Below, one piece after another: positions 7,176 to 64,000 of a stretch of DNA of 64,000 nt (its first letter is position 1; each line of letters starts with the position of its first letter). The DNA lies in contig NZ_REFU01000001.1 in the NCBI RefSeq assembly GCF_003688915.1, positions 3,038,001 to 3,102,000 on the forward strand, given 5' to 3'. The notes beneath the pieces are model-generated. The model did no database searches and was not told the origin of the DNA. It saw nothing but the letters and a program-made list of their open reading frames with translations. A program made the translations under genes and the position numbers. The DNA comes from Rhodococcus sp. SBT000017. GTDB taxonomy: Bacteria > Actinomycetota > Actinomycetes > Mycobacteriales > Mycobacteriaceae.

Positions 7176-7198
7176 CCTGCAGAGCAATCCTTCTCTCC

Positions 7199-7233: not shown

Positions 7234-7342
7234 GGTGTACGCGCCGGGCACGATTTCGCCCGAAGAACAATTCTTGTGACTTTTCTCAGTCAGCACCCCC
7301 ACTCATAGGGACATTCCACAGTTCGAGGAATACCGTCTATTC

Positions 7343-8299: not shown

Positions 8300-8302
8300 C
8301 CC

Positions 8303-9490: not shown

Positions 9491-9534
9491 GACAGGACTC
9501 TAGCCTCACCCGTGTAAGCCACGCCACAGCGAAA

Positions 9535-9550
9535 TTGTGCGGCGGCACAA
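9535..9550. promoter_or_regulatory. Inverted repeat, candidate PucR operator
   Basis: TTGTGC-GGCG-GCACAA is a perfect 6-4-6 inverted repeat. It lies in the divergent gap between the PucR-type gene (start 9490) and the aldehyde dehydrogenase (start 9657). Its TTGTGC half-site also occurs upstream of the second PucR-type gene at about 30551. Confidence 0.5.
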
Positions 9551-9656
9551 ACCGTCGCACCCGATTTCAGGCCCGTGGCCCATAGCGTCCCGCGTCCGAG
9601 TGCGACCACAATCACAGTGGAAGCCGTGTACCCGAACGACGAGTGGAGCCGAGAAG

Positions 9657-11399: not shown

Positions 11400-11431
11400 A
11401 ACCCAGCGTCGACGACGACCGAAGGACAATC

Positions 11432-13018: not shown

Positions 13019-13047
13019 TCCGCACGTGAACCTTTCGGAAAATTTCC

Positions 13048-13074
13048 GGTTTGGGAGTCCGGTTTGTCGGGTAA
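13048..13074 (+). promoter_or_regulatory. SigF/SigB-like promoter
   Basis: GGTTT (13048-13052), a 16-base spacer and GGGTAA (13069-13074) match the general-stress SigF/SigB promoter pattern. A start near 13081 would leave a 5' leader of about 100 bases before the lipoprotein gene. An 11-bp near-palindrome, GGAAAATTTCC, precedes it. Confidence 0.4.
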
Positions 13075-13182
13075 CAGGTGGGCACGCTCCCTTGCAGGGG
13101 ATCGAGATGGAACCCATCCGCTCGGCAAGCAGCGCCGAATGACCCACAACGCTCGAGAGACGAGCACGGAAGGTTGACCGAC

Positions 13183-13866
13183 ATGTTCACTGTTCGTAAA
13201 GCTTTGGCCGCCACCGCAATCGGTGCACTCACCATCGTCCCGCTTGCCGCATGCTCCAGCGAGGAAGCATCCGACACCGTCGACGCAGCCACCTCTTCGG
13301 CAGCAGAAGCCGTGGAGAGCGAGCCCGAGCCCGCAGCCGAGGTCGAGGACCTCACCGGTGTCGACACCGCAGTTGCTCTGGATGCCGGCTTCACCGGCGC
13401 ACTGACCACTCTGGGCCTCACGCCCGGCGTCGTCGGAACCGCGACCCTGGCAGACGGTTCCATCGCGTTCCCGATCACCGGCGGCGACGTCAAGTACTGG
13501 GAGCCCGGCACCGTCGACCCCTACGTCCAGGGCGAGATCAACCACGACGGCAGCGGCCTGTCGCTGACCGCAGGCGAGACCGTCGTCGAGCTCATCAACT
13601 TCGACATCGACCCGGGCACTTCGATCCTCACCGGTGACGTCATGGTCAACGGCGAAGAAGCAGCTGCAGACGCAGTTCTGTTCGATCTCGACGGCCGCAC
13701 CCTGCAGCCGCTCGCTACCGGACCCGACAACACCGCAATCCTGCAGGGCACCGAGGTGAAGATCTCGGAGACCGCTGCCGGACTGCTCAACAGCACCTTC
13801 AACACCGATGCTGTGACCCCGGGACTGCTCGTGGGCGTTGCGACCATCACGATCAACACCGCATAA
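13183..13866 (+). CDS. Lipoprotein of unknown function
   Basis: A 227-residue lipoprotein precursor: MFTVRKALAATAIG, hydrophobic core, then the lipobox LAAC, so Cys acylation and membrane anchoring are predicted. It is followed by an acidic Ser/Ala/Glu-rich linker (about 40 residues). The remainder is a beta-rich domain with repeated ITGGDV, LTGDVMVNG and FDLDGRTLQPL motifs; I cannot name a family. The ATG at 13183 follows GGAAGG; an upstream in-frame ATG at 13078 would precede the signal by 35 residues and is unlikely. A SigF-like promoter upstream suggests stress-linked expression, and a strong terminator follows. Confidence 0.75.
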   Translation: MFTVRKALAATAIGALTIVPLAACSSEEASDTVDAATSSAAEAVESEPEPAAEVEDLTGVDTAVALDAGFTGALTTLGLTPGVVGTATLADGSIAFPITGGDVKYWEPGTVDPYVQGEINHDGSGLSLTAGETVVELINFDIDPGTSILTGDVMVNGEEAAADAVLFDLDGRTLQPLATGPDNTAILQGTEVKISETAAGLLNSTFNTDAVTPGLLVGVATITINTA

Positions 13867-13880
13867 TCACTTCCTGAACG

Positions 13881-13928
13881 CCCGTGCGCGAGTCGCCGCC
13901 GTCGAAGACGGCGGCCCTCGCGCACGGG
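13881..13928 (+). terminator. Long GC-rich terminator hairpin
   Basis: CCCGTGCGCGAG and CTCGCGCACGGG pair across 13881-13928. The inner stem GCCGCCGTC/GACGGCGGC closes on a GAA loop. It lies 15 bases after the lipoprotein stop. Confidence 0.85.
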
Positions 13929-13957
13929 TGTTTGCGTCGCATGGTCAGGAGCCTCGA

Positions 13958-14428
13958 ATGAGGGCGTTCACGAAGATCTACGGCGGGCACCCGCTGCACG
14001 CGGTCGGTCTACTGCTGTCGTTCGCGCTGGTCGGCTACGTCGTCACTCTCGCCGGGCCGCAGAGTCTGTGGAACAGCGACATCTGGTGGAAGTCCATACT
14101 CGTGTGGTTCTTCGGATCGGTACTGCTGCACGACGCCGTACTGTTCCCGCTCTACTCGCTGGCCGATCGAGTGATCACCCGTATCCCACGCCGAACCCTG
14201 GCCGTGTCACCGGTGAATTTCGTTCGTGTCCCCGCCCTCGGAACCGCACTGACGTTTCTGATGTTCTTCCCCGGGATACTCTCGCAGGGTGCGGAGTCCT
14301 ACCGCGCCGCAACCGGTTCGACGCAGGAGCCATTCCTCGGACGTTGGCTCGCGTTGACCGCTGCGTTGTTCATCGTGAGCGCAATCGCTTACTTCATTCG
14401 ATTGATCCTCGTACGGAGCCGAGCATGA
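13958..14428 (+). CDS. Integral membrane protein, four predicted segments
   Basis: A 156-residue hydrophobic protein with about four membrane helices: AVGLLLSFALVGYVVTL, SILVWFFGSVLLHDAV, VPALGTALTFLMFFPGIL and WLALTAALFIVSAIAYFIRL. A conserved-looking LLHDAVLFPLYSLADR motif lies between helices two and three. The start MRAFTKIYGG at 13958 follows AGGAG. Its stop overlaps the start of the methyltransferase gene (ATGA), implying coupled expression. Function is not known. Confidence 0.75.
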   Translation: MRAFTKIYGGHPLHAVGLLLSFALVGYVVTLAGPQSLWNSDIWWKSILVWFFGSVLLHDAVLFPLYSLADRVITRIPRRTLAVSPVNFVRVPALGTALTFLMFFPGILSQGAESYRAATGSTQEPFLGRWLALTAALFIVSAIAYFIRLILVRSRA

Positions 14429-15090
14429 GCGTTACCGCCGATACACTCTTCAACCGCGCAGCAGCTGGACTACCCTGCTGGATAGGCGATTCCGACGGCA
14501 GCAGGCAGAAGCTCCCCACCGCCCGCTGGATGGGTGGCAGCGCCTCGTCCGCGGAGGATCGCCGCGCCGATCGCGCCATGCTCAGCCGATGCACCGGCTC
14601 CACCATCGATCTCGGCTGCGGGCCCGGGCGCCTCACCGAAGCGCTTGCCCGACGCGGTGTTTCGGCACTCGGAGTCGACACCTCCAAAGCAGCTGTCGAT
14701 CTGACCATCGGCCGCGGCGGCAATGCCGTGCTCCGCGACCTCTTCGAGCCGCTGCCCGACACCGGCAACTGGTCTTGTGTCCTGCTTGCGGACGGCAACA
14801 TCGGCATCGGCGGCGACCCGGTGCGACTGCTCCGCCGCGCGGCGGATCTACTGGCACCGCACGGAGCGGTCATTGCCGAAGTGGATGCGCCCAGCGACAC
14901 AGGAGTTCGCCACCGCACCGTTCGATGGGAAACCGACACCATGGTCGGCGACTGGTTCGCCTGGTCGAGTGTCAGCGCCGACGCCACCGCGGATCTCGCC
15001 GGTGCCGCCGGCCTTCGAGTGGTGGACGTGGCACCGATCGACGGGCGCTGGTTCGCTCAGATGACGCTGGCTCCGTTCACCAATTCGTGA
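14425..15090 (+). CDS. Class I SAM-dependent methyltransferase
   Basis: A 221-residue protein with the SAM-binding motif TIDLGCGPGRLTEAL (about residue 61), then the acidic loop ALGVDTSKAAVD and the post-motif LLADGNIGIGGD. The motif places it in the Rossmann-type class I family; the acceptor cannot be predicted. The start ATG overlaps the stop of the upstream membrane protein by four bases, and its 3' end overlaps the convergent membrane-protein gene by 14 bases. Confidence 0.85.
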   Translation: MSVTADTLFNRAAAGLPCWIGDSDGSRQKLPTARWMGGSASSAEDRRADRAMLSRCTGSTIDLGCGPGRLTEALARRGVSALGVDTSKAAVDLTIGRGGNAVLRDLFEPLPDTGNWSCVLLADGNIGIGGDPVRLLRRAADLLAPHGAVIAEVDAPSDTGVRHRTVRWETDTMVGDWFAWSSVSADATADLAGAAGLRVVDVAPIDGRWFAQMTLAPFTNS

Positions 15091-16393
15091 ACAGCAGATG
15101 ATTGATCGCCAACGCACCGATCACCTGCAGTGCCAACCAGAAACGATGCGTCCTGATCGGCAACACCGCGGGCGCGATCAGCATCCACATCGCGAAGGGC
15201 AGCCAGATTCTCTCGGTCTCGGCTTTGCTCAACTGGCTCAGATCAGCCATCACCACCGCGGCGATCGCCGCGATCACCAACAGATTGATCGGCTCGAGCC
15301 GGGTGAGAATCCGCGGGAACGCCGCGGGCACAGCAACACCCAGCGCGCAGAACATCGCCGCGAAGTTGGCCCAACCCCAGTACTCGAACGGGCGATCGGT
15401 CGCGATGCCCTGGTAGTAGCGCTCCTGCACCAGCAAGTAGCCGTCGTACCACCAGAATCCGTACGCGGTGAAGATCCCGGCGACGATCAGTGCACCGATC
15501 AGCGCGCCGACGAACGGCAGAATCCTCCGTCCGGCGATCAGTACCGCGACGGCGGGCAGGCCCATCAGCACCAACCCGTAGTTCAGGTACACGCCGAAAC
15601 CGAGCAACACTCCCGCGCCGATCGACGCGGGCCACAGGTAGCGCTTCGTGGAGATCGCCAGCAGCGCAATTCCCCACGCGGCGACACCTGCGTAGAACGC
15701 ATCGGCCGAGACGGCGATCCAGATTGCCGCCGGGGCGATCGCCACGAACGGTGCTGCACGCCGTGCGATGTTCTCGTCGCCGAGTACCCGGAGTGTGAGT
15801 ACCAGCGCCACAGCGGCACTCGTACCGACCAGCACGCAGAGCGTCGCCGCCCAGGCTCCACCGCCGAGGCCGAGACGGTCGAGCCACACGAAGGTGAGCA
15901 ACGCGCCGGGTGGATGACCCGACACATGCGTCGTCCACGAATCGGCCTGGTAGTCCAGGATGCGATCGGAGAAGCCGCGGAGCGTGGCGGGAATGTCGGT
16001 GACGCCGGGCACTTCGTGCAAGTACTCGTCGGTCGATGCCAGCCGGTTCACGAAGCCGCGCTTCCAACCGTCCACCATCGCCAGCGACATCGTCCAGGCC
16101 GCCGACGCACCCCACACGACGAACAACAGTCGCGTCCACGACAGTCGACGTGCCACCGTCGGCCCCCACAACACCGTGGCCACGGCGATCAGGACGGCGA
16201 CGGGAGTTCCCCATCCCACGTGAATCTCGCGGAAGCCGAACAGCGGTGCCGCATCGGCGAAATCGCGCACCTGCTGCGGAGTTCTGTTGATGATGGGGGT
16301 GACGAGTTCGTTGCCGAGGTACGGAACGACGAACGCGACCGCGACGAGCACGACGGCCAACGTGCCTGCGACGGCTTCTCTCCAGTAACGGAT
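15077..16393 (-). CDS. Polytopic membrane protein, Rv0541c-like (GT-C glycosyltransferase type)
   Basis: A roughly 430-residue protein with ten or more hydrophobic segments. HVGWGTPVAV, YQADSWTTHVSGHPPGALL and TFVWLDRLGLGGGAWA give a conserved external-loop signature like that of M. tuberculosis Rv0541c, in the neighbourhood of the same mtnP-epimerase-GT2-DUF2064 genes. GT-C lipid-linked sugar transferases have this architecture; donor and acceptor are unknown. The start is uncertain: there is no ATG, GTG or TTG until TTG at 16360. ATC at 16393 lies eight bases after GGGAG and would give a better cytosolic N-terminus (IRYWREAV). The upstream ATG at 16660 is antisense to mtnP and is not credible. 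Confidence 0.75.
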   Translation of the reverse strand: MRYWREAVAGTLAVVLVAVAFVVPYLGNELVTPIINRTPQQVRDFADAAPLFGFREIHVGWGTPVAVLIAVATVLWGPTVARRLSWTRLLFVVWGASAAWTMSLAMVDGWKRGFVNRLASTDEYLHEVPGVTDIPATLRGFSDRILDYQADSWTTHVSGHPPGALLTFVWLDRLGLGGGAWAATLCVLVGTSAAVALVLTLRVLGDENIARRAAPFVAIAPAAIWIAVSADAFYAGVAAWGIALLAISTKRYLWPASIGAGVLLGFGVYLNYGLVLMGLPAVAVLIAGRRILPFVGALIGALIVAGIFTAYGFWWYDGYLLVQERYYQGIATDRPFEYWGWANFAAMFCALGVAVPAAFPRILTRLEPINLLVIAAIAAVVMADLSQLSKAETERIWLPFAMWMLIAPAVLPIRTHRFWLALQVIGALAINHLLFTNW

Positions 16394-16471
16394 AGTCTTT
16401 TCTCCCTGCGGACTCGAGGCGAACGCGACTTCGGACCAGCATATCGACCGACGGTGATGGAGGATGAGTAG

Positions 16472-17269
16472 ATGAACTACGACGCGACGGGGCGGGCCGA
16501 GATAGCCGTCATCGGCGGCAGCGGCTTCTACTCGTTCTTCGCGGGCGACGCCGAAGAGGTAGTGCTCGACACCCCCTACGGCGCTCCCAGCGCCCCGATC
16601 ACGCTGGGCGAGGTGGAAGGTCGGCGAGTCGCGTTTCTGCCCAGACACGGCCGAAACCACGAGTTTTCACCGCACACGCTGCCGTATCGCGCCAACATGT
16701 GGGCGCTGCGGATGCTCGGGGTGAGGCGAGTGCTCGCGCCGTGTGCGGTCGGATCCCTGGTGTCCGAGTACGGCCCGGGCACCGTCGTGATTCCCGATCA
16801 GCTCGTCGACCGAACCTCAGGGCGTGCACAGACCTACTTCGACGAGGGCGGGATTCACGTCGAATTCGCAGACCCGTACTGCCCCACGCTGAGGAAGTCC
16901 GCGGTCCAGGATTCGGCGATCGACGGCGGCGTCATGGTCGTCGTCGAAGGCCCTCGGTTCTCCACTCGTGCCGAGAGCCAATGGTTCGCCCGCCAGGGTT
17001 GGACACTGGTGAACATGACCGGCCACCCCGAGGCGGTCCTGGCTCGCGAACTCGAACTCTGTTATGCACCGATCGCATTGGTGACCGACCTCGACGCCGG
17101 CATCGAATCGGGTCAGGGCGTCAAGGCGGTGGACGTGTTCGCTGAATTCCAGAAGAACATCGAGCCGCTCAAGGCACTGGTGCGCTCGGCCATCTCCGAC
17201 GCTCCCACCGGCGACTGCCCCACGTGTCGGGTGCACACCGGCCTCACGCTGCCGATCGAACTGCCATGA
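16472..17269 (+). CDS. mtnP: S-methyl-5'-thioadenosine phosphorylase
   Basis: A 265-residue purine-phosphorylase family protein that splits methylthioadenosine with phosphate to adenine and methylthioribose-1-phosphate. Motifs: AVIGGSGFY, FLPRHGRNHEFSPHTLPYRANMWAL (phosphate/nucleoside site), EGPRFSTRAES, and NMTGHPEAVLARELELCY. GGAGG precedes the ATG by about nine bases. It is the first gene of an operon in which all junctions overlap: mtnP, epimerase, GT2, DUF2064. The same order is known from Rv0535 onward in M. tuberculosis. NMTGHPE agrees with MTAP-type enzymes, but purine nucleoside phosphorylase activity cannot be excluded. Confidence 0.9.
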   Translation: MNYDATGRAEIAVIGGSGFYSFFAGDAEEVVLDTPYGAPSAPITLGEVEGRRVAFLPRHGRNHEFSPHTLPYRANMWALRMLGVRRVLAPCAVGSLVSEYGPGTVVIPDQLVDRTSGRAQTYFDEGGIHVEFADPYCPTLRKSAVQDSAIDGGVMVVVEGPRFSTRAESQWFARQGWTLVNMTGHPEAVLARELELCYAPIALVTDLDAGIESGQGVKAVDVFAEFQKNIEPLKALVRSAISDAPTGDCPTCRVHTGLTLPIELP

Positions 17270-18324
17270 CGCGGGTACTGCTCACCGGCGCAGCCGGATT
17301 CATCGGCGGCCACATTCTCGATGCGGCCGCCGTCTCCGGCCACGAGGTGGTTGCCGTCGACGCCATGCTGGAATCGGCTCACGGCCCAGGAGCGCGAGCC
17401 GACGGCATCATCGATCTCGATGTACGCGACAAGGACTCGCTCGTCGACGTACTGCGCGGGGTGGATGTCGTGTGTCACCAGGCCGCCGTCGTCGGAGCCG
17501 GAGTCGATGCCGCGGATGCCCCGGCCTACGCCAGCCACAACGACTACGGGACGGCGGTTCTGCTCGCCGCGATGTACGAGGCAGGCTGTTCCCGACTGGT
17601 TCTCGCTTCCTCGATGGTGGTCTACGGTGAGGGGCGATACCTCAATTCCTCGGGCGAAACCGTCGTTCCGCCTCCCCGCACCCGCGCCGATCTCGACGCC
17701 GGGCTCTTCGACAATCGCGATCCGCGGTCCGGTGAGCCACTCGATTGGCTTCTGGTGGAAGAGGATTCGCTACTCGAGCCCAGGAGCATCTACGCCGCGA
17801 GCAAACTGGCACAGGAGAACTACGCCTCCGCCTGGGCGCTCGCCACGGGCGGCTCCGTGGTCGCACTGCGGTACCACAACGTCTACGGACCACACATGCC
17901 GCGCAACACCCCGTATTCCGGTGTGGCCGCGATGTTCCGGTCGTCTCTGGAACTCGGTCAGGCCCCGACCGTGTACGAGGACGGCAAGCAGGCCCGCGAT
18001 TTCGTGCACGTTCACGACGTAGCGGCCGCCAACATCGCGTCGATCGAGGCGGAGGTAGACGGTTTCACCGCCCTCAACGTCTGCTCGGGGCAGCCGATCA
18101 CCATCGGCGAGGTCGCCACCATCCTCGCCGACGCACGTGGCGGGCCCACGCCCGAGATCACCGGACGCTACCGAGCGGGCGATGTACGGCACATCGTCGC
18201 CAGTTCCCGACTGGCCGAACAGACACTGGGATTCCGCGCGAAGATCATGCCGAGGGACGGTCTCACCGCATTCGCCGACGCACCGTTGCGCGACGCCGAG
18301 GGCACGGGACCACCCCGTGTCTGA
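17266..18324 (+). CDS. NAD-dependent sugar epimerase/dehydratase (SDR, GalE3-like)
   Basis: A 352-residue extended short-chain dehydrogenase. The NAD motif GAAGFIGGH is at the N-terminus; the catalytic pair is SIYAASKLAQENY (Tyr and Lys in YxxxK), with SSMVVYG before it. YHNVYGPHMPRNTPYSG is the usual substrate-loop sequence of nucleotide-sugar epimerases. ATG at 17266 overlaps the mtnP stop by four bases. It corresponds in position to the galE3 gene of M. tuberculosis; its substrate may be a nucleotide sugar used by the next two gene products, but that is inference. Confidence 0.88.
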   Translation: MTRVLLTGAAGFIGGHILDAAAVSGHEVVAVDAMLESAHGPGARADGIIDLDVRDKDSLVDVLRGVDVVCHQAAVVGAGVDAADAPAYASHNDYGTAVLLAAMYEAGCSRLVLASSMVVYGEGRYLNSSGETVVPPPRTRADLDAGLFDNRDPRSGEPLDWLLVEEDSLLEPRSIYAASKLAQENYASAWALATGGSVVALRYHNVYGPHMPRNTPYSGVAAMFRSSLELGQAPTVYEDGKQARDFVHVHDVAAANIASIEAEVDGFTALNVCSGQPITIGEVATILADARGGPTPEITGRYRAGDVRHIVASSRLAEQTLGFRAKIMPRDGLTAFADAPLRDAEGTGPPRV

Positions 18325-18970
18325 GCAGAAGTCGGTCACCGTCGTCATCCCCTGCATGAACGAGGCCGAATCGCTTCCTGCAGTGCTCGATTCGGTCCCC
18401 TCGGGCTACCTGACGATCGTGGTGGACAACAACTCCACCGACGCCACCGCCGCCGTGGCCGCTGCCCACGGAGCAACAGTGGTCACCGAAACGGTGCCCG
18501 GCTACGGCGCAGCAGTCCATGCAGGCGTCGTCGCGGCCGACACCGAGATCGTCTGTGTCCTCGACGGAGACGGCTCGATGGATCCACGCGACCTGCCGAC
18601 CCTCGTGACCGCCCTCGATCACGCGGACCTCGCCGTCGGTCGCCGCCGACCGGCGAAGGGAAGCTCGCCCCTGCACGCCAGGATCGGCAATGCCGTTCTC
18701 TCACTTCGACTTCGCACCAAGTACAAGCTTCCCGTCCACGACCTGGGAGCCATCCGCGCAGTACGCCGTCAGGCACTGCTCGACCTCGACGTCACCGACC
18801 GCCGCTCGGGCTACCCGCTGCAGCTGCTCGTGCTGGCGGCCGAAGCCGGCTGGACCGTCGTCGAACACGACGTGGACTACCGACCACGGACCGCCGGAAC
18901 GTCCAAGGTCTCGGGCTCGGTGAAGGGGACGATCGTCGCCGTGCGAGATTTCTGGAAGGTGCTCTCGTGA
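18317..18970 (+). CDS. Family 2 glycosyltransferase (DPM1/DolP-mannosyltransferase-like)
   Basis: A 217-residue GT-A fold transferase. It begins VTVVIPCMNEAESLPAVL, with VDNNSTDATAA. The metal-binding acidic motif is VLDGDGSMDP, followed by VGRRRPAKGSSPLHARIGN and HDLGAIRAVRR. It is short, without membrane helices, as expected for soluble polyprenyl-phosphate-sugar synthases. The GTG start at 18317 lies inside the epimerase 3' end (8-base overlap); longer starts read through the epimerase gene out of frame. The Rv0539-like context supports a role in envelope glycan or glycolipid assembly. Confidence 0.88.
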   Translation: MSEQKSVTVVIPCMNEAESLPAVLDSVPSGYLTIVVDNNSTDATAAVAAAHGATVVTETVPGYGAAVHAGVVAADTEIVCVLDGDGSMDPRDLPTLVTALDHADLAVGRRRPAKGSSPLHARIGNAVLSLRLRTKYKLPVHDLGAIRAVRRQALLDLDVTDRRSGYPLQLLVLAAEAGWTVVEHDVDYRPRTAGTSKVSGSVKGTIVAVRDFWKVLS

Positions 18971-19617
18971 CCGTCACCGCTCTCGTCGTCGCCAAAGCCC
19001 CCGTTCCGGGTCTGGCCAAGACGCGCCTCGCCGCCACGATCGGCGACGCCGCCGCAGCCGAACTGGCCGCGGCCTCGCTGCTGGACACCCTCGACGCCGT
19101 CTCGGCCGCCGACGTCGACCGCCGCGTCGTGGCCCTCACCGGCTCCCTCGCCGACGCGGCCCGTGCCGACGAACTCACCCTGGCTCTGGCGTCGTTCACG
19201 GTGATAGCGCAGCGCGGCGACGGATTGGGCGAACGACTGGCCAATGCACACGCCGACGCAGCCACCACCGGCGCGGTACTGCAGATCGGCATGGACACCC
19301 CACAGGTGACGGCGCAATTGCTGTCCGACGCTGCCGCTCATCTCGGCACCAGCGACGTGCTGGGATCGGCAGAGGACGGCGGCTGGTGGGCGCTGGGGCT
19401 GCGCAACCCCGCCCTCGCACGGTCCCTGCTCGACGTGCCCATGTCTGCGCCGTCGACGGGCACCGACACGCTCGATGCTCTGGCCGCAGCGGGAGCGTCG
19501 ATCACGATGCTCCCCGAATTGCGCGATGTCGATTTCGAGTCCGATCTCGAAGCGGTGGCGCAATTGTGCGCACCGACCAGCCGATTCCGTATCGCCGTCA
19601 GGCAAATGGGTAATTGA
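18967..19617 (+). CDS. DUF2064 / TIGR04282-type glycosyltransferase-like protein
   Basis: A 216-residue protein of the family also called RsfA- or Rv0540-like glycosyltransferase. The start motif ALVVAKAPVPGLAKTRLA resembles nucleotidyl/sugar transferases. GMDTPQV carries the metal-coordinating Asp, and LGSAEDGGWWALGL is the family signature. The GTG start overlaps the GT2 stop by four bases. It is the last gene of the mtnP operon. The family is common beside GT2 enzymes; its exact reaction is unknown. Confidence 0.85.
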   Translation: MTVTALVVAKAPVPGLAKTRLAATIGDAAAAELAAASLLDTLDAVSAADVDRRVVALTGSLADAARADELTLALASFTVIAQRGDGLGERLANAHADAATTGAVLQIGMDTPQVTAQLLSDAAAHLGTSDVLGSAEDGGWWALGLRNPALARSLLDVPMSAPSTGTDTLDALAAAGASITMLPELRDVDFESDLEAVAQLCAPTSRFRIAVRQMGN

Positions 19618-19813
19618 TCGGGGTTTCGGTCCGTTCCGAGAGGTCTGTTTTCGACGAAACTCGAATTTGTGCCCGAAACCTCCACATCCGTTGTGGAACA
19701 GAGCCTTCGATCTGCCCGAATTGCCGGACCGGACGCGACCAATATCGAATCGCAACAAAGCCGAACCACCGTTTCACGGCGATTTCACAGACACAGGTGC
19801 TAGAAAGTGTGAC

Positions 19814-55525: not shown

Positions 55526-56302
55526 TCACGGGACCGGTAGCCACTCCGACTTGTCGAAAACGAACTGGTCGCAACGACCGGTGAGACTCAGCAAAAGGCG
55601 CAGATGCGGGTGCGTTTCAGGCGGGTTGGCGCGGACAACCGTCAATTCGCAAGTACCATAAAGCATTACGGCGTGCACGTAATCCAGAAGCGGATCGGGC
55701 ACGTAGCCAAGATGCATACCGGCACCTGCGATCCGGACAGCATTGGGGTTCGTTTCGTTGCCGGGTTCCGTTTCCAGCATGAGTGGTGCACCCGACTCGA
55801 GAGTAGAAATGTATGCACCTGCCGTCGCGTCGCAGTGGCGAACACCATGCGCGAGAAAATGCGCTGTGGTCTCGCGCGTTTCCGAATCCCACGTCGGCAA
55901 AGAAATCAACTCGATGGGGTCGCCTTCGCGGTGGCCTCCCGATGCGGCGAGGATCTCCCAAGCGTCGGCATCGGATTCGAGGTCGAGACCGGCGAGATAG
56001 ACGGATCGATCCGGGCGTTTTGCACTCATCACCCGATCGGCGAACGATGGAAAAAGTCGGCTCGAACGGTACCGGCGATGCACATCACCGAATCCGACGA
56101 TCGGCAGGAAATGCGCGTCGTGCGTTGCTGCCTCGAGATACCTGAATTCGTAGAACGGCTGGCCGTCGTCGATGACCTTGTCGAGGTATCCGACCGCGCG
56201 ATAGGTGCTGTCCGCCACTCCACGACGCGTCACGATGAGCCTCGACCTGCGCACACCGATGGCTGCATCGGCACCTATGGGTGCAAATTCAATGGAGAGC
56301 AT
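55526..56302 (-). CDS. HipS-HIRAN protein (putative antitoxin of Hip-kinase pair)
   Basis: A 258-residue protein. Residues about 45-135 resemble HipS, the small N-terminal subdomain of HipA: FYEFRYLEAA, then RLFPSFADRVMSAKRPDRSVYLAGL and DADAWEILAASGGHREGD. Residues about 146-235 resemble a HIRAN domain: FLAHGVRHCDATAGAYI, LMLETEPGNETNPNAVRIA, GMHLGYVPDPLLDYV. HIRAN domains bind DNA ends. Bicistronic Hip kinase operons with HipS-HIRAN partners are described in the literature on Hip-kinase phylogeny. The ATG lies inside the kinase gene's last codons (14-base overlap), a strong sign of coupling. Confidence 0.75.
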   Translation of the reverse strand: MLSIEFAPIGADAAIGVRRSRLIVTRRGVADSTYRAVGYLDKVIDDGQPFYEFRYLEAATHDAHFLPIVGFGDVHRRYRSSRLFPSFADRVMSAKRPDRSVYLAGLDLESDADAWEILAASGGHREGDPIELISLPTWDSETRETTAHFLAHGVRHCDATAGAYISTLESGAPLMLETEPGNETNPNAVRIAGAGMHLGYVPDPLLDYVHAVMLYGTCELTVVRANPPETHPHLRLLLSLTGRCDQFVFDKSEWLPVP

Positions 56303-57281
56303 CGATCAGTCGCCTTCGGTTCGTTGCTACCGCTATCTGCACGAATGTACGGGTGTGGTCCGACAAGTTGGGAGCAGCGTTGATCACATCGTCGCACAGG
56401 TCGAGGTTGAGACCGACGATTCGATCGCGCCGATAACGTCGAGCATCCGCGCTCGCCAGCGACAGGGCCTGCATCGCGATGTCTACGAGTCCGACAGCGA
56501 CGCCGCCGTCGAACCGCTTCGTCACACCCCGTGAGCACCATTGCTGAACGGCTCCCGATCGCACACGGTCTGCCCGGAAAACGTCGCCGTTCCCGCTGGC
56601 CAGCGCGGAACCGTGGTCGAAGGACGGACTCAGGCACACCACGCCGGTGGTCGGATTCTGCAGGACCCCCCAGTTATGAGCGTGCCGATCGGTATTGGCG
56701 ACCAACGCGTCGAACACGAGATAACCGGCAAAGACGTCGAACGCAGGCCAGCTGTGGAACTCGGTACCGACTGGGCCATTCATTGGAGCAAGAACAGTCA
56801 GGACAGCAGAAAGCGAATGCCCGCGGCTGAGTTCCGAATCGAAATCGTCATCATGCTCAGCGAGGAGTGCGGCACCTGGAGTCCAGCCCCAACGCTCCGG
56901 CCGCATATCTCGACTCATGGATCCCAGGACCGCTTCCTCGGTTCCGCGACGGACGACTGTGGCCAATTCCGTCTCGACTGCCGGCACGCTGACCAGACGG
57001 GCGAGTTCGTAGGAAATCTTCTCAGCCCAATCCTCGCCCCGCACCAAGAGATCCGGTGCATCGCCGCGCGCCCGGCGTTGCCGCGAAAGCGTCAGTTCCT
57101 TGATTCGGCGCGGCTTGAACAACCAGCGCCCCGACTGAGAAGACGCGTCCGGCGCAGTGAACCACCGCTTCTCCTCTGCACCACCCGGCTCGCTTTCGCC
57201 GCGGGTCCAATCAGCCAGGTCGACAACGCGGAACGGTTCAACCACGTCCGAAACACTAGGGCGCACAGAGAGACGCACCAT
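56289..57281 (-). CDS. HipA-like Ser/Thr kinase, core-only
   Basis: A 330-residue HipA-family kinase lacking the N-terminal HipS part. WLFKPRR (Lys56) is the ATP-binding lysine region; GEDWAEKISYELARLVSVP is the helix with Glu84; the catalytic loop is NTDRHAHNWG (Asp198, Asn203) and the metal motif is SFDHG (Asp222). All catalytic residues are present, so activity is expected. HipA kinases phosphorylate aminoacyl-tRNA synthetases; this target is unknown. The kinase gene comes first, then HipS-HIRAN, the reverse of the usual antitoxin-first order. The start ATG at 57281 follows a 309-base gap that contains the pckA relic. Confidence 0.8.
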   Translation of the reverse strand: MVRLSVRPSVSDVVEPFRVVDLADWTRGESEPGGAEEKRWFTAPDASSQSGRWLFKPRRIKELTLSRQRRARGDAPDLLVRGEDWAEKISYELARLVSVPAVETELATVVRRGTEEAVLGSMSRDMRPERWGWTPGAALLAEHDDDFDSELSRGHSLSAVLTVLAPMNGPVGTEFHSWPAFDVFAGYLVFDALVANTDRHAHNWGVLQNPTTGVVCLSPSFDHGSALASGNGDVFRADRVRSGAVQQWCSRGVTKRFDGGVAVGLVDIAMQALSLASADARRYRRDRIVGLNLDLCDDVINAAPNLSDHTRTFVQIAVATNRRRLIDALH

Positions 57282-57368: not shown

Positions 57369-57430
57369 TGAATTCTACGCGCCCAAAAGCTGCTCGAGGC
57401 GTCGAATTCGTCCTGAATCTCGGTGGGCAG
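57369..57430 (-). pseudogene. Second, diverged copy of the pckA 3' end
   Basis: 62 bases matching the end of pckA (62171-62233): seven mismatches and one deleted base, about 87% identical, including the stop codon. Read with the missing base restored it gives [18 protein letters not shown], compared with [18 protein letters not shown] in pckA. Similarity ends abruptly at 57430 and at the pckA position 62233. The fragment lies 4.8 kb from the real gene end. Confidence 0.75.
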
Positions 57431-57590: not shown

Positions 57591-60188
57591 TCACGTCGTA
57601 CGCAAGTAAAGTTCGATCTTTTTGAGCTCGATTCCGATTCCTTCGGCCATTTCCTGCAGTTCCGAGGACGGTTGACTTCGATGGCATCTGCGCCATGGCC
57701 GCTGCCCATCTCCGCCTCCCAGCGCCGACAGCGGGGTGCCTACGACCGATACTTTGAACAGCCGCCACTGTGGTTGAGTGCTTTGGGCGACTGCGATAAC
57801 GGCACCGTCGCGGAGGAATGCGCATGTGGAGTCCAGGCCGTCAACCAGAACTGCGCACGATCGATCGATGATGGTGGCGATCTGTGCCGCAACACGCACT
57901 ATTGCTTCCCGATCCGTCGACGCTCGCCAGGCCCCCTCGATTCGATCGACGGAGAAGCCCTCGGCGTCCAGCGCGGCTTGCACCTCGGCAAAAGGATCGT
58001 TAACTGAAGACTCAGCGAGGTCTATCACCGCCTCGACGTCGGATGGGCCGACTACCTGCGCGTAGGTCTCATCCGAGGTCCGCAGGTATTCTTCTACGGT
58101 CTCCATTTCCGCTATCGCGGCGAAAATTCCGACCTCAGCCCAAATATTCTGCAGCAGAATATCTTCCGGTGTACCGCCACGCAGATGTGCATCTTGAGAG
58201 AGCAGAGCCAGACCGATAGCGACCAGAGACGCGACATACATTTCGGCCTCGTCGATGCGCTCAGCTTGCTTGTCCGATTTGACCAGGGCTTCGAGAACTT
58301 CGGCCAATTCCAAGCGCCACGATTCATCTTCCCCCCACACGCCTGCAGCTAGGAGGTGGTAATGCAGGACTGCCACCAGCATGCGTAGTTCAAGCGGGGG
58401 CGGGGGCTCTGCGGAGGCTGCGCTCCGCATGCGACGGGCGTTCTGACGCCAAAGTTTGTGCAGGGCAGAATCTATGTGCGGCGCGTGACCCTGCTCTGGG
58501 CCATCTTCCTCCGGCTCGAAATCCTCGGCATCCTCGTCATCGGTCAGGTCGAGACCCGGCTCGTCGAGGTCCACCGCCCACCGAGTGGGTTCGGCAACCT
58601 CGCCTTTGGGCAAGCCTGGAAGTACCAATCCGGTCAAGGAGGGGCCAAGCCGCCGCTCCGTACTCGTGAGCCAGTTCCCCCATCTGTCATCCTGAGTAGC
58701 GTTCGGCGTACGCGGGCCGGACGCTTTTGGTTGCCCGCCGGGACTGCGTTGATCGGCCAGAGTGCGGAGCAGCCTGTTCAGGTCGCGGTCGAAGATTCGC
58801 GCAAGTTCGGGGTCGGTGAACAGTTCCGAGTAGGCGTATTCCCGAGCAAGCCGCGGCCCAACCGGGTCGGTGCTCCGGGGCAGACAGCGAGCGCTGTCGG
58901 TCAGGAACACCACGGGGGTGACGTGAGGTCCGTCCGCTGATTCGACGACCGCACGGAGAGCTTCGCCAAATAATGGGGGCGCGCTGAACGAGATTTCAAC
59001 TGGGCCTCGCTGCTTTGGTCGGTGCATGTGAAACCGCTGCCAATCGCCGGGAGCACCAGTCGCACTGGCCTCGATGCAGATCGGTGTGGTGCCGGAGGTG
59101 AACAGCTCTACTTCGATCTGATCATGATGGCGTCGAGCACCAAGGATGGTCACAGGAACGGTGGGCTTCGCTAATTGGGCGGCGGCGGGAATCGTAGAGC
59201 GGCCGCGCAGAACCTCGGAGGTGACGGGCGCGCCGTCTGGCATCAAGCTGTGCGGGACGGGGTGGACAGCCGCAAGTTCGCAGTTGCCTCCGGACGTCGT
59301 GGATTTGAGCATCGCGGCTCTGGTGATGTTGGCACTCCCGACCAATGCGGTCACTCGGTCGCCCGACGCCCATTCGACGAGTTTCCCGTGGCGAAGACGA
59401 TCTTCGGCGAGAAAGCGGAACTCCGCTGTCGGCAGGGTGGAGATGGACTCGACCAGTCCCTCGCCGTGGAACTGCGACCATCGAGGTTGCACCGCCACTA
59501 TCGCCTGCTCCGGCTGCAATTTGTCGATCAGGGATTGGACTGCGGCCGAGGCAGGATCGAAGAACGGGGCATACATGCGCACAACATCAGTGGGCCCCGA
59601 CGGAAGCTGGGAAAAAAGCGACCTATCGAGGTTGCCGAGGATACGCAGATCCGGCAGCGATTCGTCGACGCTGCCAGGATCGATCATCGTGGCAATCTCG
59701 TCGACGGTCGCAGCGATCCATGACGGCATGCGCACCGCGTCAGGCAGATCTCGCAACCAGACGGACAGCTCACGAAGCCCGGCAGGCCCCCGCTCGAGTC
59801 CGGATCGGAGCACCAGCCATAGCTCGTCGTTGTGTCCCCAACCGGAGGTGGTGGGATTGCCGGAACCGATGGCAGCCCAAACATGCGTGTCCCCAACCAG
59901 CAGAACAAGTTTGGGGTGGAAGGCACCGCTGCAACTGGCATTGCCGTGCTGATAGGTCCGCCCTGCGGAGCGGACTTCGAGTGCGTCGTGGATGGAGTGG
60001 TGGGGGTCGGACAGCACAGTGATGCGCGCACCCAACGCGCGAGCCGGACTGATGAAATGCCTCTCAAGAAACGCTAGGTCCAGGGTGAATCCGGTAACCA
60101 GCACTTCTCGCAAGCGAGCATTGCCTTCGTCTCTCCACTGCGCAAGCAGCGTGAGCGGTGAGTGGAATTCGACCTTGGCATCCGTCAC
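57591..60188 (-). CDS. Phospholipase-D-like (two HKD motifs) protein, putative nuclease
   Basis: An 865-residue soluble protein. Two HKD-type half-sites form a PLD core: FHPKLVLLVG with GSGN (His91, Lys93, Gly108-Asn111) and RHGKLVEWASGDR with GSANIT (His267, Lys269, Gly284-Asn287). PLD-fold nucleases use the two His residues in one active site. The C-terminal ~480 residues are acidic and helical without a known domain (DLTDDEDAEDFEPEEDGPEQG linker at about 530-560). Its start overlaps the stop of the 513-residue protein by four bases. The function in nucleic-acid cleavage, for example in defence, is inferred from family and context. Confidence 0.72.
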   Translation of the reverse strand: MTDAKVEFHSPLTLLAQWRDEGNARLREVLVTGFTLDLAFLERHFISPARALGARITVLSDPHHSIHDALEVRSAGRTYQHGNASCSGAFHPKLVLLVGDTHVWAAIGSGNPTTSGWGHNDELWLVLRSGLERGPAGLRELSVWLRDLPDAVRMPSWIAATVDEIATMIDPGSVDESLPDLRILGNLDRSLFSQLPSGPTDVVRMYAPFFDPASAAVQSLIDKLQPEQAIVAVQPRWSQFHGEGLVESISTLPTAEFRFLAEDRLRHGKLVEWASGDRVTALVGSANITRAAMLKSTTSGGNCELAAVHPVPHSLMPDGAPVTSEVLRGRSTIPAAAQLAKPTVPVTILGARRHHDQIEVELFTSGTTPICIEASATGAPGDWQRFHMHRPKQRGPVEISFSAPPLFGEALRAVVESADGPHVTPVVFLTDSARCLPRSTDPVGPRLAREYAYSELFTDPELARIFDRDLNRLLRTLADQRSPGGQPKASGPRTPNATQDDRWGNWLTSTERRLGPSLTGLVLPGLPKGEVAEPTRWAVDLDEPGLDLTDDEDAEDFEPEEDGPEQGHAPHIDSALHKLWRQNARRMRSAASAEPPPPLELRMLVAVLHYHLLAAGVWGEDESWRLELAEVLEALVKSDKQAERIDEAEMYVASLVAIGLALLSQDAHLRGGTPEDILLQNIWAEVGIFAAIAEMETVEEYLRTSDETYAQVVGPSDVEAVIDLAESSVNDPFAEVQAALDAEGFSVDRIEGAWRASTDREAIVRVAAQIATIIDRSCAVLVDGLDSTCAFLRDGAVIAVAQSTQPQWRLFKVSVVGTPLSALGGGDGQRPWRRCHRSQPSSELQEMAEGIGIELKKIELYLRTT

Positions 60189-61726
60189 CGGGGCAGATCC
60201 AACAGAGCGCGGCCGAGATCGGTGGTCCGGACAGCATCATCGCTGACGTCGAACAGACCGACCTGCGAGGCGACGATGCCCAACTGGGCGGCACGCAGGC
60301 CCACATTGCCAGCGCCCTCGGAGCCCGTCGCGAAATACCGTCCGTTCATCTCGTACAACTTGGTGCGCAGCATCATCCGCCCTCCTCCGGTTGACAACTT
60401 CCGGAGCGATACCCGATGGGCTTGCGCAAGCATGTCGTCGACCATGGCACACGCAAAATCTGCCAAGGGCCGGTCGTAGTATTCTTTCCGCCGGTTGGCT
60501 ACCCAAGACGGGTCCAAAATCTGCCCACGCGAGGATCGTCTGTTCCCCAAGAATGCACTCAACGTAAGCCCTGACAAATTCTCGACGCGTAGCGAGCCGA
60601 ACAGCAGTATTGCCAGATTCCGTTCGCGTCGTTCCAGCAAGTCCCAGACCTCCTGTTCTGCGGGGTAGGGAGATCCGTAGCGATCGACGACGTCAGGGCA
60701 GCCCGCCAGGAACTCTCGCACGGACTCGCCGCTGAGTCCCTGTCGTATCCAGTTGTGAAGTTCATCCCGCGAGACCGGTTCACCCGCGGTGCTGACTTCC
60801 TCGACCAGGGCAGACCACAGGCTGCGCCATGCGCCAACGGAATGATGTCGCAAAATAGTGCCCCGCCACGCCTCGGCACGCTCGATCTCCTGGGCGAAGA
60901 CGGGATCTGCCAATAGATCCCCGCCGTAGACGACGGCATCGGTGAGAATTCGCTGCCACCCGATGTCCTCACGGCGGCGCTGGACTGCGCGCCCCATGAT
61001 CCGGAGGGTGGAGCGGCGCGTGCCGTCATTGGAGGTCCATGCATCTGGATCATGGGTGCCGCTCACTGTCGCTGTCAGCACTTCGCGCAGCGGTGCCAGG
61101 TCCGGAGATTCGATGGATATTCGAGTCAACCTCTCCACCCCCGCAAGGTCGGCCTCCTTGACCGGCCTCTTCGCCACGATGTCGAGCAGCGGGCGAAACA
61201 TCGCTCGAATGGCGAGGGGACAAGATCGTGAGCCTGACCGCAGTGCATCCCGGTCCGTCGAGACAATGCCAAGAACCACGGCGGGGCCCCTGTACTGCGA
61301 CCAAAAGCCCCATGCCCGTGGCGAATACGACCTCTCGCCAAGTTCAGCAAGGCCCGCGGCGTCTCCTGCAGCGACGATCTTGGCGACACGGTCAGCGCCG
61401 TGCGACGTGCGCCCCGCTGCAGCGGCTACGTCGGCGTCGGAAGACAGGGATGCCCAAGCCAGGGCCACTTCGGCGCGACGAAGCGCCGTTCGGCACAACT
61501 CCCGATCCCAGTCATGCTCTTCGGCGTAGGCCGCGAGGGCCCAATACAGCGAGAAGTAACGAGCCTTCTCGGTCAGCGTGGACAGCCCGGGCACCAGTGT
61601 GTCCACCATGTTCAGGACAAAGGACTCGACCCCGAGCGGGTAACGTCCGCCCCTATAGTCCAAACCGGGCGCACACCAGTCGGGCCCCTCCACTCCGGTC
61701 GAGATCGCCGCAGTTCCAGCGCTCAA
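60185..61726 (-). CDS. Uncharacterised 513-residue partner of the PLD-like protein
   Basis: No family recognised. It is soluble with conserved-looking blocks: an N-terminal WCAPGLDYRGGRYPLGVESF, a charged helix with LTEKARYFSLYWALAAYAEEHDW, a central RRSTLRIMGRAVQRRREDIGW and a C-terminal RVSLRKLSTGGGRMMLRTKL basic stretch. The start is TTG at 61726, which overlaps the stop codon of the hsdM relic (TTGA), with no clear ribosome-binding site; GTG about 33 bases further is an alternative. Its stop overlaps the PLD-like gene start by four bases, so the two form one operon, and the partner may act as a sensor or regulator of the nuclease. No catalytic motif is visible. Confidence 0.72.
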   Translation of the reverse strand: MSAGTAAISTGVEGPDWCAPGLDYRGGRYPLGVESFVLNMVDTLVPGLSTLTEKARYFSLYWALAAYAEEHDWDRELCRTALRRAEVALAWASLSSDADVAAAAGRTSHGADRVAKIVAAGDAAGLAELGERSYSPRAWGFWSQYRGPAVVLGIVSTDRDALRSGSRSCPLAIRAMFRPLLDIVAKRPVKEADLAGVERLTRISIESPDLAPLREVLTATVSGTHDPDAWTSNDGTRRSTLRIMGRAVQRRREDIGWQRILTDAVVYGGDLLADPVFAQEIERAEAWRGTILRHHSVGAWRSLWSALVEEVSTAGEPVSRDELHNWIRQGLSGESVREFLAGCPDVVDRYGSPYPAEQEVWDLLERRERNLAILLFGSLRVENLSGLTLSAFLGNRRSSRGQILDPSWVANRRKEYYDRPLADFACAMVDDMLAQAHRVSLRKLSTGGGRMMLRTKLYEMNGRYFATGSEGAGNVGLRAAQLGIVASQVGLFDVSDDAVRTTDLGRALLDLPR

Positions 61727-61974
61727 GATTGGTCTCGGTAGTCGACTGGACTGGAGTATCCAAAGTTGATTTTCAGTACGACACCAGGGTCCACCCCGAG
61801 GCCCTGAATTCTCCTGTGCTCGGAGATGATCTCGTCCTTGATGGGGGCACGGATCTCTGCTGGGCGATACAGGGTGGTGAGCGGCAAGATCACATCGCTA
61901 CATTAGTTGGACTTGTCGGGCCCACGCAGCAGGTTCGCGATGTTCCAGATCAGGTTTGTGTTCGTCGTCGCCAT
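61723..61974 (-). pseudogene. Relic of type I restriction methyltransferase hsdM (5' part)
   Basis: 84 in-frame codons from ATG at 61974 read MATTNTNLIWNIANLLRGP, then DKSN, a TAA stop, and CSDVILPLTTLYR, followed by PIKDEIISEHRRIQGLGVD. This closely follows the N-terminus of HsdM (LIWxIAxLLRG, Y, DVILPxTVLRR, PTK, GLGVDP). The TAA replaces a conserved tyrosine codon. The remaining ~450 codons are missing; the frame ends with TGA at 61723, overlapping the TTG of the next gene. The upstream 149 bases (61975-62123) show nothing further. Confidence 0.7.
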
Positions 61975-62123: not shown

Positions 62124-62157
62124 AATGCCGGGCCCGCAGATTTGCGGACCCGGCATT
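62124..62157 (-). terminator. Terminator after pckA
   Basis: AATGCCGGGCCCGCA and TGCGGACCCGGCATT form a 15-bp stem with one mismatch and a four-base loop, 20 bases after the pckA stop. Confidence 0.85.
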
Positions 62158-62176
62158 ATCGCCGCGGCATTGAATA

Positions 62177-64000
62177 CTACGCGCCCAGGCGCTGCTTGAG
62201 GGCGTCGAATTCGTCCTGAATTCCGGTGGGCAGCTTCTCGCCGACGAAGTCGAACCACTCCTGGATCAGCGGGATTTCGGCCTTCCACTCGTCGGTGTTC
62301 ACCGCGAGTGCCTCGGCCACGTCCTCGACGGTGGTGTCGAGTCCGTCGATGTCGAGTGCCTCGGCGGTGGGGACCACACCGATCGGGGTCTCGATGCCTG
62401 CGGCCTTGTGCTCGATGCGCTCGACGATCCACTTGAGCACGCGCGAGTTCTCACCGAATCCGGGCCACAGGAAGCGCTTGTCGTCCCCGCGACGGAACCA
62501 GTTGACGTAGAACACCTTCGGCAGCTTCGACTCGTCGGCGTTCTTGCCGAGGTCGATCCAGTGCTGGAAGTAGTCGCCCACGTTGTAGCCGAGGAACGGC
62601 AGCATGGCCATCGGGTCGCGTCGGACGGTTCCGACGGTCCCCTCGGCAGCAGCGGTCTGCTCGGAGCCGACGGTGGCTCCCATGAACACTCCGTGCTGCC
62701 AGTCGCGAGCCTCGGTCACCAGCGGAACGGTGGTCTTGCGACGTCCACCGAACAGGATCGCCGAGATCGGCACACCCTTCGGGTCGTCCCACTCCGGAGC
62801 CATCGACGGGCACTGAGCCATCGGCACGCAGTAGCGCGAGTTCGGGTGCGCGGCATCGGTTCCGGACTCGGGGGTCCAGTCGTTGCCCTTCCAGTCGATC
62901 AGGTGCTCGGGCTTGCCTTCGAGGCCCTCCCACCACACGTCGCCGTCGTCGGTCATGCCGACGTTGGTGAACACCGAGTTGCCCTGGTCGATGGTCTTCA
63001 TCGCGTTGGGGTTCGAGTCCCAGTTGGTGCCGGGTGCGACGCCGAAGAAACCGTATTCGGGGTTCACGGCGTAGAGACGGCCGTCCTCACCGAAACGCAT
63101 CCATGCGATGTCGTCACCGATGGTCTCGGCACGCCAGCCCGGGATGGTCGGCTGGATCATCGCGAGGTTGGTCTTGCCACACGCGGACGGGAATGCAGCG
63201 GCGATGTAGTACGCCTTGTCCTCGGGCGAGATCAGCTTGAGGATCAGCATGTGCTCGGCGAGCCAGCCCTCGTCGCGGGCCATCGCCGACGCGATACGCA
63301 GCGAGTAGCACTTCTTGCCCAGCAAAGCGTTGCCGCCGTAGCCGGATCCGTAGCTCCAGATCTCGCGATCCTCGGGGAACTGAGTGATGTACTTGGTGTC
63401 GTTGCACGGCCACGGGACGTCCGCTTGGCCCTCGGCGAGCGGAGCGCCGAGCGAATGCAGCGCCTTGACGAAGAATCCGTCGTCGCCGATCTTGTCGAGC
63501 GCGGCCTTTCCCATGCGGGTCATCACGCGCATGGACACCACGACGTACTCCGAATCGGTGAGCTCGACACCCAGCTTCGGGTCGGCTGCACCGAGTGGGC
63601 CCATACAGAACGGCACGACGTACATGGTGCGTCCGCGCATGCAACCGCGGTAGAGCTCGGTCATGAGCGTCCGCATCTCGGCGGGGTCCATCCAGTTGTT
63701 GGTGGGACCGGCGTCGATCTCTTCCTTGGAACAGATGTACGTACGCGACTCGACGCGAGCGACGTCCGACGGATCGGAGTTGCCGAGGAACGAGTTGGGC
63801 TTCTTCTCGTCGTTGAGGCGAGTGAAGGTGCCTGCCTCGACCAGCTTGTTGGTCAGGCGCTCCCATTCGGCGTCGGATCCGTCAGCGAACACCACGGATT
63901 CCGGTTCGGTCAGTTCGGCTACCTGGGCAACCCAAGCGAGCAGTTCTTTGTGTCGAGTCGGCACGTTGTCGGTGCTGCTCAAACCGGGAATGGTGGCTGA
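62177..64000 (-). CDS. pckA: Phosphoenolpyruvate carboxykinase (GTP), 5' end off window
   Basis: At least 608 residues, open to the window edge; the codons beyond TTG 63982 read SATIPGL, matching the known start region of mycobacterial PckA, so the true start lies outside. Motifs: nucleotide loop [12 protein letters not shown] with the active Cys, [25 protein letters not shown], and [25 protein letters not shown]. The enzyme converts oxaloacetate and GTP to PEP in gluconeogenesis. The 3' end has a second diverged copy at 57369-57430, and an accessory island lies directly downstream. Confidence 0.95.

Follow-up and report, generated by a model that had tools for sequence, protein, structure and literature searches.

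A two-gene unit inserted at pckG in Rhodococcus sp. SBT000017: a candidate defence nuclease pair remotely related to Zac

What is the role of two overlapping genes found beside defence-like genes in an island of Rhodococcus sp. SBT000017, and do they belong to a system that has already been described? The window (the whole stretch of DNA analysed, 64,000 nucleotides) carries both open reading frames at the positions and on the strand where the first-pass annotation had placed a two-gene operon, including the four-base overlap:

57591..60188, minus strand: PLD-superfamily gene, 865 aa, GTG start, downstream gene of the pair, predicted nuclease
60185..61726, minus strand: partner gene, 513 aa, TTG start, upstream gene of the pair
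60185..60188, minus strand: four-base stop/start overlap of the partner and PLD genes

In every one of 39 further loci from actinobacteria, the PLD gene lies directly 3′ of the partner gene, and the four-base overlap is found in 38 of them, the overlap in L011 being one base. Because it recurs in this way, the pair is not due to chance: the two genes constitute a strict two-gene unit with obligate pairing, shared by many actinobacteria.

The PLD protein was described as having two HKD half-sites and a long acidic C-terminus. Two PLD half-sites are indeed present, but with the motif HxK...N...E instead of a classical HKD. The final 100 residues comprise 10 acidic and 11 basic ones, and the acidic stretch is a linker within the protein:

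59823..59918, minus strand: PLD half-site I, residues 91-122 (H91-x-K93, N111, E122)
59277..59390, minus strand: PLD half-site II, residues 267-304 (H267-x-K269, N287, E304)
58480..58574, minus strand: internal acidic linker, about residues 539-570

The H-K-N-E residues of both half-sites are invariant in all 23 aligned PLD sequences, that of the window among them, and the linker (11 acidic residues within 541-560) is also acidic in the family consensus. By profile, the Pfam family PLDc_2 is barely over its cut-off (27.9 vs 27 bits), and half-site II gives weak DrmC and NgoFVII-type matches. The predicted structure contains the PLD fold, with a pTM of only 0.54 and pLDDT below 50 for residues 528-565; folded parts are predicted on either side of the linker. 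Its best structural match is Tdp1, a eukaryotic repair enzyme in which two HxK...N half-sites lie within one chain, which has no partner gene and is 12-14% identical to the PLD protein; the restriction nucleases SauUSI, NgoAVII and BfiI are also matched, as are PLD3/4 and lipid enzymes such as phosphatidylserine synthase and phospholipase D. The fold is, in this model, nearest to DNA-acting members, and the matches to Tdp1, SauUSI, NgoAVII and BfiI therefore make a nuclease likelier than a lipase.

These structural neighbours nevertheless raise the question of a role outside defence, either in lipid metabolism or in repairing DNA by removing protein adducts as Tdp1 does, since Tdp1 and then PLD3/4 are the nearest solved folds and lipid enzymes are among the matches too. 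Such a role is very unlikely, given the rare accessory distribution of the pair, its insertion at pckG and the frequency of defence neighbours above that of control stretches (see below). Furthermore, no phospholipid family occurs among the Pfam families listed (25 out of 120) for 101 neighbour proteins. That scan dropped near-duplicates (L004, L006, L028, L030), the window and proteins below 150 aa, and a size limit left out 73 of the 174 selected neighbours.

The partner matches no Pfam or NCBIfam family. The protein search, which like the other protein searches scored only about 8,000 candidates (7,997 here), retrieved 143 partner homologues; conservation extends over the whole length of the protein, with 58 invariant columns in an alignment of 26 sequences. 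Its model (pLDDT 83.5) is mostly helical with three beta-hairpins, which may correspond to winged-helix domains. Neither the model nor a profile built from diverse partners found a confident relative in the PDB, so the nucleic-acid role proposed below rests on this winged-helix-like geometry.

Both proteins show remote similarity to components of Zac, which PADLOC-DB defines by ZacA (PDLC03828, DUF6361), ZacB (PDLC03829, PLD) and ZacC (PDLC03830, helicase). The PLD protein matches ZacB partially (E 2e-9, best over 267-307; hhalign E 3e-8), its C-terminal half being unaligned, and ZacB is matched by 14 of 15 aligned PLD members. The partner matches the PADLOC ZacA model over residues 41-107 (a 67-residue profile match, E 5e-8), and hhalign recovers one short stretch (E 1e-4, probability 58% and 38%). 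Only 3 of 18 partners match ZacA, and Pfam DUF6361 gives no match to the partner at E<=1, whereas it identifies all three true ZacA proteins scanned. The sequences thus point to the partner and the PLD protein being distant relatives of ZacA and ZacB. The gene order (partner, then PLD) and the overlap of the genes are shared with Zac, the ZacB profile similarity spans both PLD half-sites, and type I R-M genes lie alongside both kinds of locus (Zac in L047, the pair in L034 and L097). Unlike Zac, the pair comes without ZacC, and its PLD protein of about 865 aa compares with a ZacB of 618 aa in L047, to which its C-terminal half cannot be aligned. Indeed, no ZacC is found beside the pair in 59 loci (9 of them with less than 3.5 kb of downstream sequence) or anywhere in the genome of the window, whereas all four complete Zac loci compared, two identified by PADLOC and two by annotation, include it. 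Among 20 pair-bearing genomes, two have a full-length ZacC distant from the pair and five more have short helicase-motif matches alone.

The statement of the first-pass annotation that the pair matches no described system must therefore be revised, and its partner "without known domains" does lack any Pfam or NCBIfam family but has an N-terminus remotely related to ZacA. The profile and structure searches that it had suggested thus gave ZacA/ZacB similarity and PLD fold matches on one side and a partner devoid of confident PDB match on the other. In the literature searched, no description of the Zac/DUF6361 group and no paper with both terms PADLOC and Zac were found; preprints were mostly outside this search, so a description may exist. 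The one paper containing both names ZacA and ZacB concerns surfactants.

With respect to DISARM, BREX and Dnd, the original reading holds: the pair matches none of their core genes convincingly. Among four window proteins scanned for DISARM, weak DrmC matches occur in the PLD protein only. DrmC is also a PLD protein and its profiles match at half-site II, but the matched models are 153-265 positions long, compared with 865 residues; the DrmA/DrmB/methylase set is not constant with the pair, and DrmD-like neighbours occur only in some loci. The BREX type 2 models for PglX, PglZ and BrxC/PglY match neither protein. The candidate PLD family PDC-M27B of PADLOC gives a weak match at half-site I in 12 of 15 PLD members, whereas the partner matches no PDC-M27 model. 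SauUSI, a type IV, ATP-dependent enzyme combining PLD and helicase parts, shares the PLD nuclease fold but carries its ATPase on the same chain, whereas the pair has no constantly accompanying helicase gene. The resemblance to BfiI, NgoAVII and CglI lies in the HxK catalytic motif, the PLD nuclease fold and the separation of recognition from cutting. BfiI builds a single site from two chains (PMC4081073), and NgoAVII and CglI are accompanied by a methylase and an ATPase (PMC4267653); no gene for either is constant with the pair.

The pair has a rare accessory distribution in whole-genome searches of 393-401 genomes, tallies that may be low because three first-look candidates were scored per genome. 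It is also carried by plasmids (six matches, of which H3, H4 and H5 were left out of the locus set). Also left out were three genomes whose partner matches were broken or partial (G1185, G1173, G1221) and repeats of contigs already counted (L094-L096, L103, L127, L130); L099 is the opposite side of the same place as in L095. A contig end falls within the PLD gene in L001 and L003, and only the end of the partner is present in L039.

Many of these loci have defence genes close by. In L092 the pair lies within a BREX type 2 operon, HsdM/HsdR-like genes are near it in L010, L034 and L097 and DrmD-like helicases in L010 and L131, and on the Mycobacterium avium plasmid pS2b a type III methylase and an endonuclease annotated as a restriction enzyme come after it. 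In other loci, the pair adjoins genes of R-M, Gabija, BREX or DISARM-like type, and Streptomyces neighbourhoods are mixed. Such settings could mean that the pair is an add-on nuclease of larger systems, working with the adjacent helicase/methylase complex (BREX, type I R-M or DISARM-like). This is unlikely: the neighbours are of unrelated kinds, 39 of 59 loci have no defence marker at 150 bits or more (20 have one), and the sole R-M part found in the window is a 71-residue relic. Besides the partner and the PLD protein, no neighbour family is constant, as judged from our own mechanical gene calls, which overlook some genes (in the window, for example, that of the PLD protein).

As the marker proteins were taken from neighbourhoods of the pair and from the Zac locus L047, matches in donor loci are circular; when these loci are omitted, 11 of 50 pair loci show a marker. 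A held-out set of 16 loci (17 new ones minus L092, the only marker donor among them) was compared with 40 control stretches taken from these genomes. Defence neighbours occur in 6 of 16 pair loci vs 0 of 40 controls, one of the six (L137) being weak at 98 bits; L131 and L132 come from one genus and are thus not independent. The counts are 5/16 vs 0/40 at 150 bits (p 0.001), 4/16 at 300 bits (p 0.005) and, after removal of L093 and L097, which had been examined before the marker set was fixed, 5/14 at 90 bits (p 6e-4). An association with R-M, BREX and other defence genes, for which the first-pass annotation had proposed a co-occurrence analysis near R-M genes, is thus measurable in other genomes. 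The 20-kb controls sat at fixed positions, chosen arbitrarily, of 13 among the 17 genomes (test loci being 16 or 20 kb); as they are not matched accessory genes, a tendency of accessory genes at large to gather in islands could contribute.

From this genomic association, we infer a role in defence. It is fairly probable that the two proteins form a nuclease system complete in itself, which is related to Zac but lacks the helicase and is carried as cargo of defence islands. Weighing against it are the 39 loci devoid of a marker, the mixed Streptomyces neighbourhoods, the shortness of the ZacA similarity, the occurrence of the PLD fold in lipid enzymes and the low pTM of the PLD model. As sensor or gate, the partner would bind either nucleic acid or a signal of infection and would restrain or direct the PLD protein. 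Upon triggering, the two half-sites of the PLD protein would form a single catalytic centre and cut DNA by metal-independent covalent-histidine chemistry, as in BfiI, Nuc and Tdp1. As no methylase is constant beside the pair, host methylation is probably not what protects self DNA; instead, the nuclease would be activated conditionally or would need modified or abnormal DNA as its target (type IV-like). The outcome could be invader clearance or death of the infected cell. A bolder proposal, to which we give slightly less than even credence, is that of a widespread, undescribed and autonomous two-protein defence family of Actinomycetota, in which a sensor gates an 865-residue single-chain metal-independent PLD nuclease, with methylation-independent self/non-self discrimination and without helicase, ATPase or methylase, possibly a stripped-down Zac core. 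Zac is catalogued but little studied, and the pair looks like an undescribed simplified relative of it. Should the pair prove functional, defence would be achieved by a nuclease system with neither ATPase nor methylase and probably no need for metal, small enough for full study, which would also offer a first way into the Zac/DUF6361 group.

The tight coupling of the genes, partner first, together with the pckG insertion and plasmid carriage, would also suit a toxin-antitoxin or abortive module, in which the partner would neutralise a toxic PLD nuclease and which would help to maintain the island no less than to defend against phage. The Argonaute-associated AgaP provides a precedent, being reported as a PLD nuclease whose toxicity depends on its H and K residues (PMC11442185). 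We regard such a module as quite unlikely, since the partner is large and conserved over its full length. To our knowledge, this size and this conservation are unlike those of known antitoxins, and the self-contained nuclease system remains the preferred reading.

The claim that the pair lies inside an island is supported by a mobile insertion of 4.8 kb at the pckG 3′ end, with the gene-end repeat on both boundaries, which is absent in 13 of 13 closest relatives:

62171..62233, no strand: pckG (PEP carboxykinase) 3′ end, left copy of the bounding repeat (families D1, D3)
62124..62157, no strand: terminator-like hairpin past pckG, within the insertion (I22)
61762..61974, minus strand: hsdM relic, covering residues 1-71 out of 657 in a type I methylase, one in-frame stop
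57369..57430, no strand: diverged pckG 3′-end copy, right insertion boundary (junction vs unoccupied sites of relatives)
56289..57281, minus strand: HipA-like kinase (HipA_C), PDC-M03A, 332 bits, outside the pckG repeat pair
55526..56302, minus strand: HIRAN-like protein, PDC-M03B, 232 bits, neighbouring module

The native downstream sequence restarts at the right boundary. The two companions reported for the pair are both present: the type I R-M relic is a decayed hsdM fragment (52% identity, E 8e-15) inside the insertion, and the Hip-kinase pair corresponds to PADLOC PDC-M03A/PDC-M03B, the HIRAN match being sub-threshold (23.2 vs 24.7 bits). The pckG 3′ end is marked as a collecting place of defence modules in the genus, with two separate arrivals in the window. 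The hairpin at 62124..62157 is absent from the four empty pckG sites compared. The PDC-M03A module also occurs at pckG without the pair, in G208/L062.

The two minus-strand ORFs that the first-pass annotation had described as a two-gene operon are present in the window, with 4 bases in common, in a region with a G+C content of 0.61-0.62, compared with 0.63-0.70 in most 2-kb steps of the window. The features of this region are listed here:

61726..60185, minus strand: partner gene, 513 aa, TTG start
60188..57591, minus strand: PLD protein gene, 865 aa, GTG start
55526-57281, minus strand: HipA-like kinase and HIRAN-like protein, PADLOC candidate PDC-M03 (332 and 232 bits)
57369-57430 and 62171-62233: imperfect direct repeat (~62 bp) of the pckG 3' end, bounding the insert
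about 57.4-62.17 kb: insert containing a hairpin, the hsdM relic and the pair

The partner and the PLD gene are a real unit. A search of genome contigs with the partner profile gave 39 loci from Rhodococcus, Mycobacterium, Lentzea, Saccharothrix, Actinosynnema, Pseudonocardia, Streptomyces, Micromonospora and other genera, and the PLD gene lies directly 3' of the partner, on the same strand, in all 39 (at L001 and L003, the contig stops within the PLD gene). The genes overlap by 4 bases in 38 of these loci and by 1 base in L011. Whole-genome searches added 17 non-repeated loci, in all of which the partner precedes the PLD gene; among the 11 whose spacing was computed, seven have gaps of 16-70 bases, three have overlaps of 4-26 bases and one (L138) has a spacing of 274, from an evidently wrong start. 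This strict coupling suggests that the two proteins form a fixed complex. That the two genes are a toxin-antitoxin system is unlikely. The pair is uncommon, being found, own genome included, in 1/37 genomes of the genus, 5/401 of the family, 20/397 of the order (3 broken or partial) and 7/393 of the class. The partner occurs in 6 of 72,556 plasmid records and was not found in phage records; viral contigs searched for both proteins gave neither.

The final ~60 bases of pckG are repeated at 57369-57430. Comparison of the junctions with four empty sites and with the pckG locus of the relative G208 (L062) indicates that native sequence extends to just beyond the pckG stop, where the insert begins, and resumes past the diverged repeat. 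No integrase was seen in the insert. The insert is missing in all 13 relatives whose PEP carboxykinase shows at least 96% identity; a ROK gene adjoins pckG in 12 of them. Both neighbours claimed earlier were recovered: the hsdM relic (71 residues of a 657-residue type I methylase) inside the insert, and the Hip-kinase pair as the PDC-M03 candidate. As the latter lies outside the right repeat and its upstream sequence is common to G208, the HipA/HIRAN module probably arrived separately from the pair insert. In G208, the 13th relative (L062, L098), a HipA/HIRAN pair with 79% and 77% identity to that of the window lies alone at the pckG 3' end, and pckG therefore looks like a recurrent landing site for defence modules.

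Defence genes were assigned around the pair by PADLOC for some of the loci that supplied marker proteins and otherwise by tblastn. A BREX type 2 operon encloses the pair in L092 (G328, same family): PglX (1653 bits) is on one side and BrxC/PglY (1249 bits) on the other, PglZ (660 bits) lies 3' of the pair, and part of PglW (561 bits) lies 5' of it, at the stretch edge. That the pair is an accessory to such larger systems is rather unlikely. Elsewhere, the neighbours include PglW-PglX-BrxC divergent from the pair (L007), Gabija GajA/GajB (L002, L004, L006), type IIG enzymes (L009, L138), type IIG enzymes with a DrmD-like helicase (L018, L028, L030), HsdM- or HsdR-like genes (L002, L010, L013, L024, L034, L097, L131, L132), a DruE-like helicase-kinase (L011) and a PglZ-like gene (L129). 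At L053 (14216-20253), on the M. avium plasmid pS2b, genes for a type III methylase and for a restriction endonuclease annotated as BPTD_3080-family begin 45 bases beyond the pair, on the same strand. In the L092 operon (127-19634), an ORF without assignment (5853-8762) precedes the pair, between PglX and BrxC/PglY. Within 10 kb, six Streptomyces pair loci (L014, L016, L022, L023, L029, L035) have unassigned neighbours as well as Hsp70-like genes, possibly another undescribed module.

Markers scoring at least 150 bits occur in 20/59 loci, or 11/50 with the marker donors left out. The 39 loci without a marker, and a mixed Pfam tally of 101 neighbours, count against a defence association. A non-defence role is very unlikely. 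In a held-out test, 6/16 new loci had markers, versus 0/40 arbitrary 20-kb stretches taken as controls from 13 of the 17 genomes concerned (p 2.5e-4; 6e-4 to 0.005 at stricter cuts or with omissions). HsdM-like genes occur at 5/39 loci, where 116 N6_Mtase matches in 464 Mb lead one to expect 0.15 such genes (p 5e-4 when counted as three genera, Pseudonocardia accounting for 3 of the 5).

The earlier statement that the pair matches no known defence system needs qualification, since PADLOC weakly matches it to ZacA and ZacB. In profile-profile comparisons, the PLD proteins align with ZacB over 276 columns covering both half-sites (E 3e-8, 95%; a more diverse alignment gave 3e-10, 97%), and the partners with ZacA over 76 columns (E 1e-4, 58%; 3e-4, 38%, with the diverse set). 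The ZacB model matches 14/15 PLD proteins; ZacA, the sole PADLOC family matching partners, matches 3/18. DUF6361 marks true ZacA (3/3 scanned), and the gene order at the Zac loci examined is DUF6361 - PLD - helicase (L047, L049, L051 on the Cronobacter plasmid pESA3 and L052 on a Bradyrhizobium plasmid); L048 stops within ZacB and L050 has a partial ZacA match only. The helicases of L047 and L049 match ZacC (1081 and 911 bits). ZacC is absent from the sequence covered at 59 pair loci, 9 of them with less than 3.5 kb downstream. Full-length ZacC is also absent in 18 of the 20 pair-bearing genomes searched whole, own genome included; in the other two (G1170 and G406), it is far from the pair. 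The pair departs from Zac in two defining features, and its identification as Zac was rejected; it may function in a Zac-style manner. Among the literature matches listed, there was no description of ZacA/ZacB in this sense, nothing joining Zac to PADLOC and no mention of DUF6361, and the portion consulted of a paper on BREX diversity (PMC12839542) contains no such pair. The pair is best regarded as a novel version of a kind already catalogued but little described. At L047, in the same family of bacteria as the window, a complete ZacABC locus (136-17382) has a type I R-M cassette in front of it, with one 367-aa ORF in between, and is followed by a gene with mad3- (84 bits) and LmuB-like (78 bits) matches.

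Globally, we favour the pair being a gated nuclease, which is fairly probable. The two half-sites of one chain would form a single catalytic centre. As no methylase was seen constant beside the pair, self would probably be spared by gating or by choice of target. Precedents for PLD nucleases as defence effectors are AgaP, whose toxicity requires H105 and K107 (PMC11442185), and those belonging to DISARM, Dpd, BRIGADE and Druantia III (PMC12458937). The partner, which we infer to be a nucleic-acid sensor or gate, belongs to no family in Pfam and NCBIfam scans and has no convincing match in a PDB comparison; its confident model (mean pLDDT 83.5, pTM 0.84) is mostly helical, with three beta-hairpins positioned as in winged helices.
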